DNA of 36,169 nucleotides from assembly GCA_028289725.1 (NCBI GenBank), contig JANQOH010000447.1:1-36169 (forward strand), given 5' to 3'. This document shows, in pieces, positions 18,165 to 23,382 of this stretch. The position numbers and the translations under genes were made by a program. The notes beneath the pieces were generated by a model that saw only the letters and a list, made by a program, of their open reading frames with translations, made no database searches and was not told the origin of the DNA. Position 1 is the first letter of the stretch; the number at the start of each line of letters is the position of its first letter. This stretch comes from Alphaproteobacteria bacterium (lineage in GTDB: Bacteria > Pseudomonadota > Alphaproteobacteria > UBA7887).

Positions 18165-18231
18165 TCAGACCTGACCCAAGCCTATACTGAGCCCGCCAGG
18201 CGGCGCGGCCGCCGCGACGTGGGAGGGCTTG

Positions 18232-19383
18232 ATGAAACGTCGGGATTTCTTGACAGGCGCCGTGACCGGCGCGGTTGTTGCCGCCGGGGCAACTTACGCC
18301 GCAACGTCCAATCGTGCGCCGGCACCTATTGAACCGGGCACGCCTGATGATCCGGGCACGGCACCGGCCGTGTCCTCCGGCTTGCGCGAATGGAAAATGG
18401 TCACAACCTGGCCGAAGAACTTTCCGGGCGCGGGAACCGCGGCGCAGGAGCTAGCCGACAATATCACGGCCATGTCCGAAGGCCGGTTGGTGGTCAAATT
18501 GTTCGCCGCCGGCGAGGTGGTACCCGCGTTTGAATCTTTCGATGCCGTGCGGGAGGGCACCGCGGAATGTGCGCACGCGGCGCCGTATTATTGGGTCGCG
18601 AAGAACAAGAGCATTCCCTTTTTCTGCGCCGTCCCAGGTGGTTTGAGCGTGATCGAACACAATGCCTGGATCATGTATGGCGGTGGCCAAGAGCTGTGGG
18701 ACGAAATGTACGGCGAGTTTGGCGTGCGCGGTTTCTTGTCCGGCAACACCGGCACCCAGATGGGCGGCTGGTTTCAGCGCGAAATCAACTCACTCGACGA
18801 CTTCAAAGGTCTTAAAATCCGCATTCCAGGCTTGGCGGCCGAGGTGCTCAATCGGCTCGGCGCGACCGCGGTCAATATGCCGGCCGGTGAAATTATGCCG
18901 GCGCTGCAATCCGGCGTCATTGACGCGGCCGAGTGGGTCGGTCCTTGGGTCGATCTGACCATGGGCTTTTACAAAGTCGCCAAGAACTATTATGGCCCCG
19001 GCTTCCACGAAGGCAGTACGGCCAACGAACTCCTGGTCAACGAGCAAACGTGGCAGTCGCTGCCGAGCGACCTCCAAGCGATCGTTCGCACGGCCTGCCA
19101 TGAAGCCAACATGAAAGTCCCCGCGGAATATTTCGCCCGTAGCTCCGACGCACTGGCCACGCTGGTCAATGAACATGGCGTAACGCTCAAGACTTTCCCG
19201 GACGAGGTCTACGCGGAAGCCTATCGCATCTCTGAGGAGGTCAATGCGGAGACCGCGAACGAGGGCGATCTCAACCGACGAATCTATGAAAGTTGGAGCA
19301 AGTTCCGCAAACACGCCATGGACTATCAGCCCCTGTCCGATTTCGGATTTATCCAGAACCGGCGGCGCGCCATCGCGTCTTAG
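18232..19383 (+). CDS. TRAP transporter substrate-binding protein (FcbT1/TakP-like), copy 1
   Basis: Tat motif MKRRDFLTGAVTGAVVAAGATYAA, Pro-rich linker, WKMVTTWPKNFPGAGTAAQELADNITAMSEGRL...NTGTQMGGWFQREINSLDDFKGLKIRIPGLAAEVLNRLGATAVNMPAGEIMPALQSGVIDAAEWVGPW. Confidence 0.95.
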   Translation: MKRRDFLTGAVTGAVVAAGATYAATSNRAPAPIEPGTPDDPGTAPAVSSGLREWKMVTTWPKNFPGAGTAAQELADNITAMSEGRLVVKLFAAGEVVPAFESFDAVREGTAECAHAAPYYWVAKNKSIPFFCAVPGGLSVIEHNAWIMYGGGQELWDEMYGEFGVRGFLSGNTGTQMGGWFQREINSLDDFKGLKIRIPGLAAEVLNRLGATAVNMPAGEIMPALQSGVIDAAEWVGPWVDLTMGFYKVAKNYYGPGFHEGSTANELLVNEQTWQSLPSDLQAIVRTACHEANMKVPAEYFARSSDALATLVNEHGVTLKTFPDEVYAEAYRISEEVNAETANEGDLNRRIYESWSKFRKHAMDYQPLSDFGFIQNRRRAIAS

Positions 19384-19419
19384 CTCTTGTCTAGGGCCAT
19401 ATTTTAGGAAATTGACATC

Positions 19420-20502
19420 GTGAAGACTCGCAAGCTCACCCGCCGCAATATCCTCGCGGCCGGCGGCGTCGCCGCCGCATCGACCTTGGCCGCGCCCGCG
19501 ATTGCGCAGAATCGGCTGAGTTGGAAAATGATCACGGCTTGGCCCAAGAATTTTCCGGGCCTGGGCACCGGTGCGCAACGCATCGCCGACGCCATCACCG
19601 AAATGTCCGAAGGCCAGCTCTCCATCAAGCTCTATGCTGCCGGCGAACTTGTTCCGCCGCTGGAGGTGTTCGACGCCGTCGCCCAAGGCACCGCCGAGAT
19701 GGGCCATTCAGCGCCGGCTTATTGGACCGGCAAGAACAAGAGCTTCGCATTTTTTGCGGTCGTGCCGGGCGGCTTAGTCGCGCAAGAACAGAATGCCTGG
19801 GTGGCCTATGGCGGCGGCCAGGAGCTCTGGGACGAAACCTATGGCGAATACGGTCTAAAGGCCTGGCCCGCTGGCAATACCGGCACCCAAATGGGCGGAT
19901 GGTTTAACAAAGAGATCAACAGCCCCGACGACTTGAACGGGTTGCGGATGCGCATTCCCGGCTTGGCGGGCGAGGTGATCAACCGTGCGGGCGGCTTGGC
20001 GGTCAACATTCCCGGCGGCGAAATCATGACCAGCATGCAGTCGGGCGTGGTCGACGCCGTGGAATTCGCGGGACCTTGGACCGACCTCGCCTTCGGCTTC
20101 CACAAAGTCGCGAAATACTATTACGGCCCTGGTTTTCAGGAGCCGGGCCCGAGTCTGGAGTTGATCATCAATCGCCGGCTTTGGGATGAGTTGCCGCGGC
20201 ACTTGCAGAAAATCGTCGAACACGCGTCCGCGTCCGAGAACCAGCGCATGTTGTCGGAGTTCACGGCGGGCAACGCGGCGTCGCTCGAAGTGCTGGTGCG
20301 CGACCACGGCATAACACCGCAAAAGATGCCCGATGACGTAATTCGGAAATTAAGAGCGATTAGCGAGGAGGTCCTCGAGGAGACGGCCGAGCTCGGCGAC
20401 TTAAACCGCCGCATCTATGAGAGCTGGTCCAAATTCCGCGCCCAAGCGGCGGCACTGGCGCCATTTACCGAGCAAGGCGCCCTCAACCAGCGTGACCTGT
20501 AA
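19420..20502 (+). CDS. TRAP transporter substrate-binding protein (FcbT1/TakP-like), copy 2
   Basis: GTG start; Tat-like TRRNILAAGGVAAASTLAAPAIAQ; WKMITAWPKNFPGLGTGAQRIADAITEMSEGQL...GGWFNKEINSPDDLNGLRMRIPGLAGEVINRAGGLAVNIPGGEIMTSMQSGVVDAVEFAGPW; clear paralog of flanking copies. Confidence 0.95.
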   Translation: MKTRKLTRRNILAAGGVAAASTLAAPAIAQNRLSWKMITAWPKNFPGLGTGAQRIADAITEMSEGQLSIKLYAAGELVPPLEVFDAVAQGTAEMGHSAPAYWTGKNKSFAFFAVVPGGLVAQEQNAWVAYGGGQELWDETYGEYGLKAWPAGNTGTQMGGWFNKEINSPDDLNGLRMRIPGLAGEVINRAGGLAVNIPGGEIMTSMQSGVVDAVEFAGPWTDLAFGFHKVAKYYYGPGFQEPGPSLELIINRRLWDELPRHLQKIVEHASASENQRMLSEFTAGNAASLEVLVRDHGITPQKMPDDVIRKLRAISEEVLEETAELGDLNRRIYESWSKFRAQAAALAPFTEQGALNQRDL

Positions 20503-20542
20503 CGCATCGGCTGTTAGCTTTTTCGAGATTGAAAATTTCACA

Positions 20543-20568
20543 ACCCGTCGTCCCAGCTCACGACGGGT
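20543..20568. promoter_or_regulatory. perfect 9-bp inverted repeat (hairpin) between SBP copies 2 and 3
   Basis: ACCCGTCGT (20543-20551) / ACGACGGGT (20560-20568), 8-nt loop CCCAGCTC; lies 26 bp upstream of the copy-3 ATG (20595). Confidence 0.5.
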
Positions 20569-20594
20569 CATCAAGTCATGGAAGTGAGAAAGAT

Positions 20595-21692
20595 ATGACC
20601 CGTAAATCCCCGTCCCGCCGTGGTTTCCTCAAGGGCGCGGCCGTCGGTGCCGTCGCTGCATCATCGCTGCCCGCGCCAGCAATCGCGCAAGGCAATGTGC
20701 AATGGAAGATGGTCACGACATGGCCGAAGAATTTTCCAGGACTTGGCACCGGCGCCCAACGAATCGCCGATCGCATTGACGCGCTGACCGACGGACGATT
20801 GAAGGTAAAACTGTTCGCGGCTGGCGAGTTGGTCCCCGCGTTCGAGGCGTTCGACGCGGTGCGCGATGGCATCGCGGAAATGACGCACGACGCCGCTTAT
20901 TATTGGGTAGCCAAGCACAAAAGCATGCCGTTCTTCTGCACGGTTCCGGGCGGCCTGACCCAACAGGAGCACATGGGATGGATCTACCATGGCGGCGGTC
21001 AAGCGCTCTGGGACGAACTTTATGCTGAGTTTGGATTGAAGGCGTTTCTTGCTGGTGGCACCGGTGTTCAGATGGGCGGCTGGTTCCAAAAGGAGATCAA
21101 CAGCCTCGACGACCTTCAAGGACTGAAAATGCGCATCCCGGGCCTCGGCGCGGAAGTCATCAACCGATTGGGCGGCACCGCCGTCAATATGCCAGGCGGC
21201 GAAATCATGCCGGCATTGCAGTCCGGCGTGATCGACGCGACCGAATGGGTCGGCCCTTGGAACGATCTCGCCTTCGGTTTCTACAAGATCGCCAAATACT
21301 ATTACGGCCCAGGCTTCCACGAGCCGAGTTCGGCTCTCGAAGTCATGGTGTCGAAGGACAAGTTCGAGGAGCTGCCGAGCGACTTGCAGGCGGCTGTCGA
21401 AAACGCGTGCATGGCCGAAAACGGATATATGCTGAGCGAGTTCACGGCCGGCAATAGCGCCGCACAAGCAACCCTGACCGGTGAACATGGCGTTTCGATC
21501 GGCAGTTTCCCCGACGATGTGGTGAAAGCCGCCTACGGCGCCGCGGTGGATGTCCTGCACGAAACCGCAGACGTCGACGATCTGGGCAAACGCATCTTCG
21601 ACAGTTGGTGGAAGTTCCGACAGGAAGCGATCGACCGCGCCCCATTCGCCGAACAGGGCTACATGAACAATCGCGGTCTTGCTAACGCTTAG
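20595..21692 (+). CDS. TRAP transporter substrate-binding protein (FcbT1/TakP-like), copy 3
   Basis: MTRKSPSRRGFLKGAAVGAVAASSLPAPAIAQ Tat signal; WKMVTTWPKNFPGLGTGAQRIADRIDALTDGRLKVKLFAAGELVPAFEAFDAVRDG...GVIDATEWVGPWNDLAFGFYKIAKYYYGPGFHEPSSALEVMV. ORF track start (TTG 20529) rejected because it spans the hairpin. Confidence 0.95.
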   Translation: MTRKSPSRRGFLKGAAVGAVAASSLPAPAIAQGNVQWKMVTTWPKNFPGLGTGAQRIADRIDALTDGRLKVKLFAAGELVPAFEAFDAVRDGIAEMTHDAAYYWVAKHKSMPFFCTVPGGLTQQEHMGWIYHGGGQALWDELYAEFGLKAFLAGGTGVQMGGWFQKEINSLDDLQGLKMRIPGLGAEVINRLGGTAVNMPGGEIMPALQSGVIDATEWVGPWNDLAFGFYKIAKYYYGPGFHEPSSALEVMVSKDKFEELPSDLQAAVENACMAENGYMLSEFTAGNSAAQATLTGEHGVSIGSFPDDVVKAAYGAAVDVLHETADVDDLGKRIFDSWWKFRQEAIDRAPFAEQGYMNNRGLANA

Positions 21693-21862: not shown

Positions 21863-22651
21863 ATGGCTGTGCTGATCCAAAGCGTTTCCAAGACCCACCT
21901 TGTCCTTGGCGACAAGGCGCTTGCCGCGCTTGAAGCAAAACCGACCGAAAGTGTCGAAGGCCGCGTCGGCGGACGCACGTTTCAGGCAAGAGTAGCCATT
22001 CCCCACTATGCAGAGAATGTTGCGCGACACTATGCCGACCTTGCACTCGCCGGATTAGAACAGATATGCAACGCTACCGAGGTTGCCCGGCCATTTCGCG
22101 ACTTTGGTTTGTTCTGTACTTTCGACGCTGCGACTGAACTACAGGTTCACGATTCCGACCTAAACCTGGATGAGAACATCCGAACGCTCATTCAGCGCTT
22201 CGGGCCGGTCGTGATCACGAATGCGTATTTGCCCGAACGTGATCGCAAAGCCGACCAAACAAACATATTTCCGCACTTGCAATTTCATTTCGATCGCGGA
22301 CGCAATCAGCCGACCCAGACATCGCTGTTCTATCGTGATCCTTTTGACCCTGTTCAGGCTGCGCCACGCGAGTCATCGACCGTTCACTGCGCAAACATCG
22401 TCGCCCACTTGCAACATGCCAAGGAAACCGGCCAGGCCGCTGAAAGCCTGGCATGGCGCGGCTTCTACAACATATTTGAGGACGAAGACCTAGATAGCCT
22501 TATCGGCAATATATTATTCGAACACCGCTGGGACGGGCCCCAAGGTACGGGCGAGATCGCGGTTTTGTTCAATGGGACCGTCTTGCACGCAAGTTACTAT
22601 CGACGCACAGCGTTGAGGGGATACCCAATCAGTGTGCGCTATCTCAGGTAG
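21863..22651 (+). CDS. uncharacterised protein; candidate divergent TauD/TfdA-like Fe(II)/2-oxoglutarate oxygenase
   Basis: 262 aa. IRTLIQRFGPVVITNAYLPE resembles TauD N-terminal strand pattern; HFD (His142-x-Asp144) in FPHLQFHFDRGRNQPTQTSLFYRDP resembles TauD WHTDVTF..PPMASILYA; C-terminal GEIAVLFNGTVLHASYYRRTALRGYPISVRYL resembles the distal His...Arg segment. Inference by eye. Confidence 0.5.
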   Translation: MAVLIQSVSKTHLVLGDKALAALEAKPTESVEGRVGGRTFQARVAIPHYAENVARHYADLALAGLEQICNATEVARPFRDFGLFCTFDAATELQVHDSDLNLDENIRTLIQRFGPVVITNAYLPERDRKADQTNIFPHLQFHFDRGRNQPTQTSLFYRDPFDPVQAAPRESSTVHCANIVAHLQHAKETGQAAESLAWRGFYNIFEDEDLDSLIGNILFEHRWDGPQGTGEIAVLFNGTVLHASYYRRTALRGYPISVRYLR

Positions 22652-22713
22652 AACGAAGCCGTTGGCCAGGTTGGCAGACTCGCCGAAATTCCCGGAAATC
22701 CTAGATTCTAAGC

Positions 22714-23382
22714 GTGGAATTGGTTCCGGAGAGCCGTGCCACCTCGTGCATAGAATTGGGTTACCGAAATATGCGTCTCTTTAGACGGCCATCGACTCCC
22801 GCCATAACGAACACTGCCCGAACGGAGGCGCGGACTGTCGTCGCGAGCAAAAATGACACCGGTCGCGTGTGCGGCGCACATTGCACCGTAAAGTGTCAGA
22901 AATGTGGATCGGTGGCGTGCCGTTGCGAGTGCACGCCTGACTGCGAACTAGCGTCGCGTGCGCTATCCAGCGAGCCTGACGCGTTTCCGGTTGAGCACCA
23001 TATCGTGCCGTTAGTATACGAACTGAAACGTCTCCGCTCATTCACACCATGTTGGTCGTGCGAAGGCCACAACGACAACACCGGCAAGCTGCACCGAGTA
23101 CCCAGCGTTTGGTTCTATTGCGAGTCCGTCGTTCAGGCGCGCCTTTTGTCAGAAGGCATCGAAAAACTGGCAATCCAAAAACGACTCAACGCGGGTTGGC
23201 ACGTGGTGATCGCCGTCGCCGAACCGGACAATCCGGATACCCTCTACAAGCTGGAACCGGCGATTGAGGTGGGTCGTGACATTAGTCTCGATCAATTGCG
23301 TGCCGACGTTCGAACGATCGCGGACAACTTAAACCACCATGTTCTTGACGCCGCGACAGCGCTGGCCGGACAGCCGGCCTGA
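22714..23382 (+). CDS. uncharacterised Cys-rich protein with PCWSCEGH motif
   Basis: 222 aa from GTG 22714 (alternative ATG 22771, MRLFRRP). N-terminal CGAHCTVKCQKCGSVACRCECTPDC (8 Cys in 25 aa), then FPVEHHIVPLVYELKRLRSFTPCWSCEGHNDNTGKLHRVPSVWFYCES. Ordered, protein-like composition but no family recognised with confidence. Confidence 0.65.
   Translation: MELVPESRATSCIELGYRNMRLFRRPSTPAITNTARTEARTVVASKNDTGRVCGAHCTVKCQKCGSVACRCECTPDCELASRALSSEPDAFPVEHHIVPLVYELKRLRSFTPCWSCEGHNDNTGKLHRVPSVWFYCESVVQARLLSEGIEKLAIQKRLNAGWHVVIAVAEPDNPDTLYKLEPAIEVGRDISLDQLRADVRTIADNLNHHVLDAATALAGQPA

Follow-up and report, generated by a model that had tools for sequence, protein, structure and literature searches.

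A gene for a probable divergent TauD-type oxygenase and its companion, a gene for a cysteine-rich CWSCEGH protein, inserted in an alphaproteobacterial TRAP transporter locus

The window analysed here (the whole stretch of 36,169 nucleotides from contig JANQOH010000447.1 of an alphaproteobacterial genome assigned to UBA7887) carries a TRAP transporter locus, within which two adjacent genes of the same direction are flanked by the third + strand DctP protein gene on one side and by the - strand dctMQ genes on the other (assigned by Pfam: DctP PF03480, +; DctM PF06808 and DctQ PF04290, -). The features on which the text relies are the following:

21863..22651, + strand: gene 1, putative divergent TauD/AtsK-like Fe(II)/2-oxoglutarate oxygenase, 262 aa (from the open reading frame list)
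22286..22294, + strand: gene 1 H142-F-D144, the HxD half of the predicted iron-binding facial triad
22586..22588, + strand: gene 1 H242, predicted distal iron-binding His, in the motif GxGEIxxxDNxTxxHAS
22771..23382, + strand: gene 2, Cys-rich CWSCEGH protein, 203 aa from the likely ATG
22714..23382, + strand: gene 2 from the GTG at 22714, the start given earlier (222 aa, 62 bp after gene 1)
22870..22944, + strand: gene 2 N-terminal Cys module, C34-x3-C38 ... C54-x3-C58 (conserved Cys)
23050..23070, + strand: gene 2 motif C94-W-S-C-E-G-H100 (from the alignment of 80 sequences)

The two co-directional, intact reading frames reported by the first-pass annotation were both recovered together with homologs of each (34 for gene 1, at 32-50% identity, and 79 for gene 2, at 27-43% identity), and the existence of these homolog sets places both reading frames beyond chance. 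The size given there for gene 1 (262 aa) stood, while that of gene 2 (about 222 aa, with a gap of 62 bp) had to be revised. In at least 90% of the 80 rows of the gene 2 alignment the first position is the Met of an MRI... start, and since the window's ATG at 22771 falls on that very column, the GTG at 22714 probably lies too early; with the ATG preferred, gene 2 comprises 203 aa and the intergenic gap measures 119 bp. The GC3 comparison proposed alongside bore out the weaker GC bias described for this segment (0.59 in gene 1 and 0.63 in gene 2, versus 0.69-0.78 in the flanking genes). An RNA structure was sought in the intergenic region and not found (z = -0.07), the Rfam search recovered no families, and the promoter scan, which is uninformative for this organism, came back empty. 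The neighbouring binding proteins are three tandem DctP paralogs (18229-21692 of the window), present in 1-3 copies at the same locus in relatives, the copy number thus being variable within the family.

Taken alone, the gene 1 protein of the window matched nothing in Pfam or NCBIfam. At the level of its family, however, the Pfam TauD profile (PF02668) was matched by 19 of the 35 members (best E 2.5e-6), with the window protein itself below detection. The HxD...H iron-binding triad (H142, D144, H242) was kept in all 35 sequences, as were R145, R158, R169, W223, E231, N237, I256 and Y260. When aligned by hhalign with ordinary TauD-family proteins of the same genome, GTGEIAVLFNGTVLHAS was placed on RKGDVLIWDNRCSMHLA, which points to H242 as the distal ligand. 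The window's genome contains nine further PF02668 TauD-family matches (on contigs C414, C218, C381, C5, C107 and others), and is rich in oxygenases of this kind. A genome scan with the single gene 1 sequence returned nothing, its exact peptide patterns being too specific. The AlphaFold2 model of gene 1 (mean pLDDT 92.8) retrieved, by Foldseek, 70 PDB chains at E <=0.001, led by the alkylsulfatase AtsK, Rv3406 and TauD; the best match, AtsK, reached an E of 3e-5 and a probability of 1.00, yet the TM-scores amounted to only 0.35-0.41, so that the kinship to these enzymes is remote. A double-stranded beta-helix, the fold of the TauD superfamily, is on these values a candidate fold for gene 1. PDB profile searches with the gene 1 and gene 2 families returned nothing useful. 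At R259 (17 residues past H242), which we take to be the site where TauD enzymes hold the Arg that binds 2-oxoglutarate, Arg occurs in 26 of the 35 sequences and Gln in 7; the invariant R145, R158 and R169 lie elsewhere in the sequence than this Arg. Considering that R259 is not invariant, 2-oxoglutarate is only a putative cosubstrate of gene 1. We infer that gene 1 encodes a divergent TauD/AtsK-type oxygenase that would use Fe(II) and 2-oxoglutarate. The proposal of a TauD-like oxygenase candidate was borne out by the family-level Pfam matches and the fold matches, and the remark that neither protein belongs to a family nameable with confidence was upheld as well.

Gene 2, whether searched as the window protein or as a family, had no convincing Pfam match and belonged to no NCBIfam family. 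Two blocks stand out from its alignment. The first is an N-terminal module of four cysteines (C38 in 80/80 sequences, C34 and C54 in 79/80, C58 in 78/80), which encloses a loop of variable length and is predicted to form a metal-binding knot. The second is C94-W-S-C-E-G-H100, invariant at all seven positions in the 80 sequences and a probable active or ligand site; P111, F115 and W143 are shared as well. The AlphaFold2 model is confident throughout (mean pLDDT 96.1), and its comparison by Foldseek with the solved folds of the PDB gave no match (best E 0.056). A text search of the literature for the CWSCEGH motif found no paper. Kinship with TYW3 (PF02676), raised by a by-eye likeness to its SSCSGR motif, was rejected (hhalign probability 0.2%). 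Gene 2 copies that look decayed or broken (internal stops, a deletion, a frame change) were met in three genomes in which gene 1 was not found (G035, G015 and G235; L002 1447-2043, L003 and L017). At yet another locus (L103, 7349-9126) an insertion with a 456-aa DDE transposase (PF13701, E 1.9e-144) interrupts gene 2, and the broken gene stands just upstream of an intact gene 1.

The core of gene 2 is homologous to uncharacterised proteins of jumbo phages and plasmids. Against predicted viral structures, Foldseek matched it to uncharacterised jumbo-phage proteins (the best being PhiPA3 gp356, E 1e-4), in which the motif reads RYCCEGH (gp356) or LWSCEGH (an Erwinia phage relative). By hhalign, gene 2 aligned with its phage and plasmid relatives at a probability of 96.6% (E 6e-10) over about 76 columns around (W/C)xCEGH, and phrog_11112 was matched by 44 of the 80 gene 2 proteins. 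Relatives borne on plasmids were found in Cupriavidus and Enterobacter, the Enterobacter plasmid also carrying a phage tail gene; altogether this (W/C)xCEGH superfamily is a broad one. With the gene 2 protein itself as the query, neither the plasmid nor the phage searches had any match, and scans of viral contigs with the gene 1 and gene 2 alignments gave no confirmed match.

The two genes form a genuine pair. Among 385 genomes of the class, both genes were present in 8, gene 2 only in 9, gene 1 only in 0 and neither in 368 (Fisher p = 2.2e-12; 4.9e-11 without the window's genome). They were adjacent in 7 of the 8 genomes in which they co-occur, and on different contigs in the remaining one (G364). 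The phylum sample contributed one further gene 1 genome, complete in a single contig and from outside the class sample, in which gene 2 was adjacent and divergent. A scan with the gene 2 alignment over one genome per species (84,980 species) recovered 80 loci, with gene 1 beside gene 2 in 36 of them, clear flanks without gene 1 in 33 and flanks cut by contig ends in 11. Because gene 2 was the query for this set, whether gene 1 depends on gene 2 can be judged only from the class and phylum samples, and a locus counted as lacking gene 1 is one where it is not adjacent (L079 is suggested to be the G364 contig, with gene 1 elsewhere). The dependence is strong and one-way in the genomes sampled, where gene 1 implies gene 2; most of these genomes are MAGs, whose incompleteness could hide gene 1 in some of the cases of gene 2 alone, but would not create a dependence of 8 out of 8. 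The first-pass proposal of a two-gene module would have failed had homologs never co-occurred, and every gene 1 genome sampled has gene 2.

The 80 loci come mostly from MAGs of Alphaproteobacteria and Gammaproteobacteria, with a few in MAGs labelled Hydrogenedentota, Nitrospira, KSB1, Zixibacteria and Sorangium; the isolates with the pair include Pelagibius litoralis and Aestuariispira insulae. Four arrangements were observed, the commonest being gene 2 followed by gene 1 (often nearly touching) and the others gene 1 followed by gene 2 (the window, L042, L064), divergent (L029, L030, L037) and convergent (L100). Across the locus set no other recurring neighbour of the pair was found. That closeness is kept while the order changes, and that nothing else recurs beside the two genes, argues for function rather than inherited synteny. 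The distances within gene 1 and gene 2 are correlated (Mantel r = 0.81, 0 of 5000 permutations), which partly reflects species descent. Mapped onto the gene 2 tree, paired status requires 14 changes (26.6 when labels are shuffled), and the pair was therefore gained or broken repeatedly. In a comparison of the gene 2 homologs, no residue strictly tracked whether gene 1 was present.

The synteny of the junction, which the first-pass annotation had suggested comparing in close relatives, was followed in six genomes of the same family (DctM 79-86% identical): all keep the convergent order of the binding protein gene and dctM, and the pair is absent from them. The stop codons of the two genes lie only about 10-20 bp apart at four of these loci (L163-L166) and about 125 bp apart in G003, while in the nearest relative, G002, the junction is occupied by another gene, whose product of about 205 aa is apparently secreted (L162, about 1720-2335). 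The empty junctions in relatives, together with the lower GC3, establish that the pair was inserted here, into a convergent TRAP junction that tolerates such additions and seems to have received insertions more than once; neither repeats nor a target duplication were found at the insertion. Homologs of the window's TRAP, ate or SLC13-like genes were found near gene 2 in none of 80 other loci. Given this, and that the relatives' TRAP locus lacks the pair, the TRAP link of the pair is most likely accidental. Thus, of the two options first offered for the module, insertion at this site was upheld and a tie to the imported ligand was not, and the neighbourhood survey, advised at the same time, shows that the genes co-occur (36 of the 80 gene 2 loci) without TRAP genes nearby.

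We reason that the two genes may constitute a self-contained module built around gene 2 as its core, with gene 1 oxidising either gene 2 or its ligand, a reading to which we give an even chance. The gene 2 product would be a small soluble protein, whose Cys4 module would bind metal and whose CWSCEGH motif would carry the function. It would be the core component, because the dependence is one-way and some loci have gene 2 with no gene 1 next to it. The product of gene 1, as its putative physical partner, would oxidise (hydroxylate) gene 2 itself or a small ligand bound by it; because no residue of gene 2 strictly tracks gene 1, the substrate is no less likely to be a common ligand than gene 2 itself. 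The wider claim, of an undescribed two-protein oxidative system in which a TauD-type oxygenase requires a dedicated metal-binding CWSCEGH partner in order to work, is put forward tentatively and may well prove wrong. Where one gene strictly needs another, as gene 1 does gene 2 in both Alphaproteobacteria and Gammaproteobacteria, a real biochemical partnership usually lies behind it. If the claim holds, solving one member of the large superfamily that the CWSCEGH partner shares with jumbo phages would give several phage families a first function; neither gene has a named function, and a small two-gene unit could open the whole superfamily.

Other explanations fit parts of these data. An iron oxygenase beside a Cys-rich protein with invariant cysteines recalls RiPP-like pathways, with gene 2 as the substrate polypeptide, and gene 1 might accordingly oxidise the cysteines of gene 2 to give a product that binds metal. 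Published precedents exist for DUF692/MNIO enzymes (PMC12452194), which act in this way on bufferins and methanobactin. We regard this as unlikely, since gene 2 is about 200 aa long and folded throughout (pLDDT 96), with no leader/core layout; it occurs without an adjacent gene 1 in 33 informative loci, the gene 1 family matches TauD rather than DUF692, and no transporter or protease recurs beside the pair.

It is likewise improbable that gene 2 is an RNA or tRNA enzyme related to the wybutosine methyltransferase TYW3, with gene 1 hydroxylating the same base in the manner of TYW5. A 2-oxoglutarate hydroxylase is known in the wybutosine pathway (TYW5, in eukaryotes), the order of helix, SCxG loop, WFx strand and helix is alike by eye, and relatives of gene 2 reside in jumbo phages, which encode tRNAs. 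Against this, gene 2 aligned with four archaeal TYW3 proteins at an hhalign probability of 0.2%, no TYW3 appeared among the best 50 PDB fold matches listed, and no profile match of gene 2 to PDB sequences was obtained.

The patchy distribution, the changed gene order, the lower GC3 and the relatives of gene 2 in phages would also suit an anti-phage defence or toxin-antitoxin unit carried as a mobile cassette. We give this little credence, as PADLOC returned nothing at E up to 0.1, defence-like or mobile genes do not recur in the neighbourhood, the insertion shows no repeats and gene 2 alone is common. Least probable of all is an accessory catabolic module in which the oxygenase starts the breakdown of the TRAP-imported ligand: TauD-type enzymes often start the breakdown of imported sulfonates or sulfate esters and the pair is positioned between the DctP genes and dctMQ, but homologs of the window's TRAP genes accompany gene 2 in 0 of 80 loci, and the six relatives retain the TRAP locus without the pair, the G002 junction having a different gene.

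Among known systems, the phage proteins of PHROG 11112, 7413 and 21654 (e.g., PhiPA3 gp356) share with gene 2 the core around (W/C)xCEGH; the phage and plasmid relatives lack its N-terminal Cys4 module, and those examined have no gene 1 relative beside them, the close neighbours being all hypothetical proteins. TYW3 (PF02676) resembles gene 2 in an SCxG motif that follows a helix, though its motif ends in GR and that of gene 2 in GH. The MNIO/DUF692 systems are analogous only in how they work, pairing a non-haem iron oxygenase with a Cys-rich protein, as gene 1 belongs to another enzyme family and gene 2 is a folded 200-aa protein rather than a leader-core precursor. A further comparison is with TauD/AtsK (PF02668), the best fold match of gene 1 and the profile matched by 19 of the 35 family members, with which it shares the HxD...H triad and, by hhalign, the distal-His motif W..G(D/E)...DN...H. 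It departs from them in having about 12% identity to the solved members, a spacing of only about 98 residues from HxD to H and a cosubstrate Arg that is not invariant, and, in the sampled genomes, in being always accompanied by gene 2.
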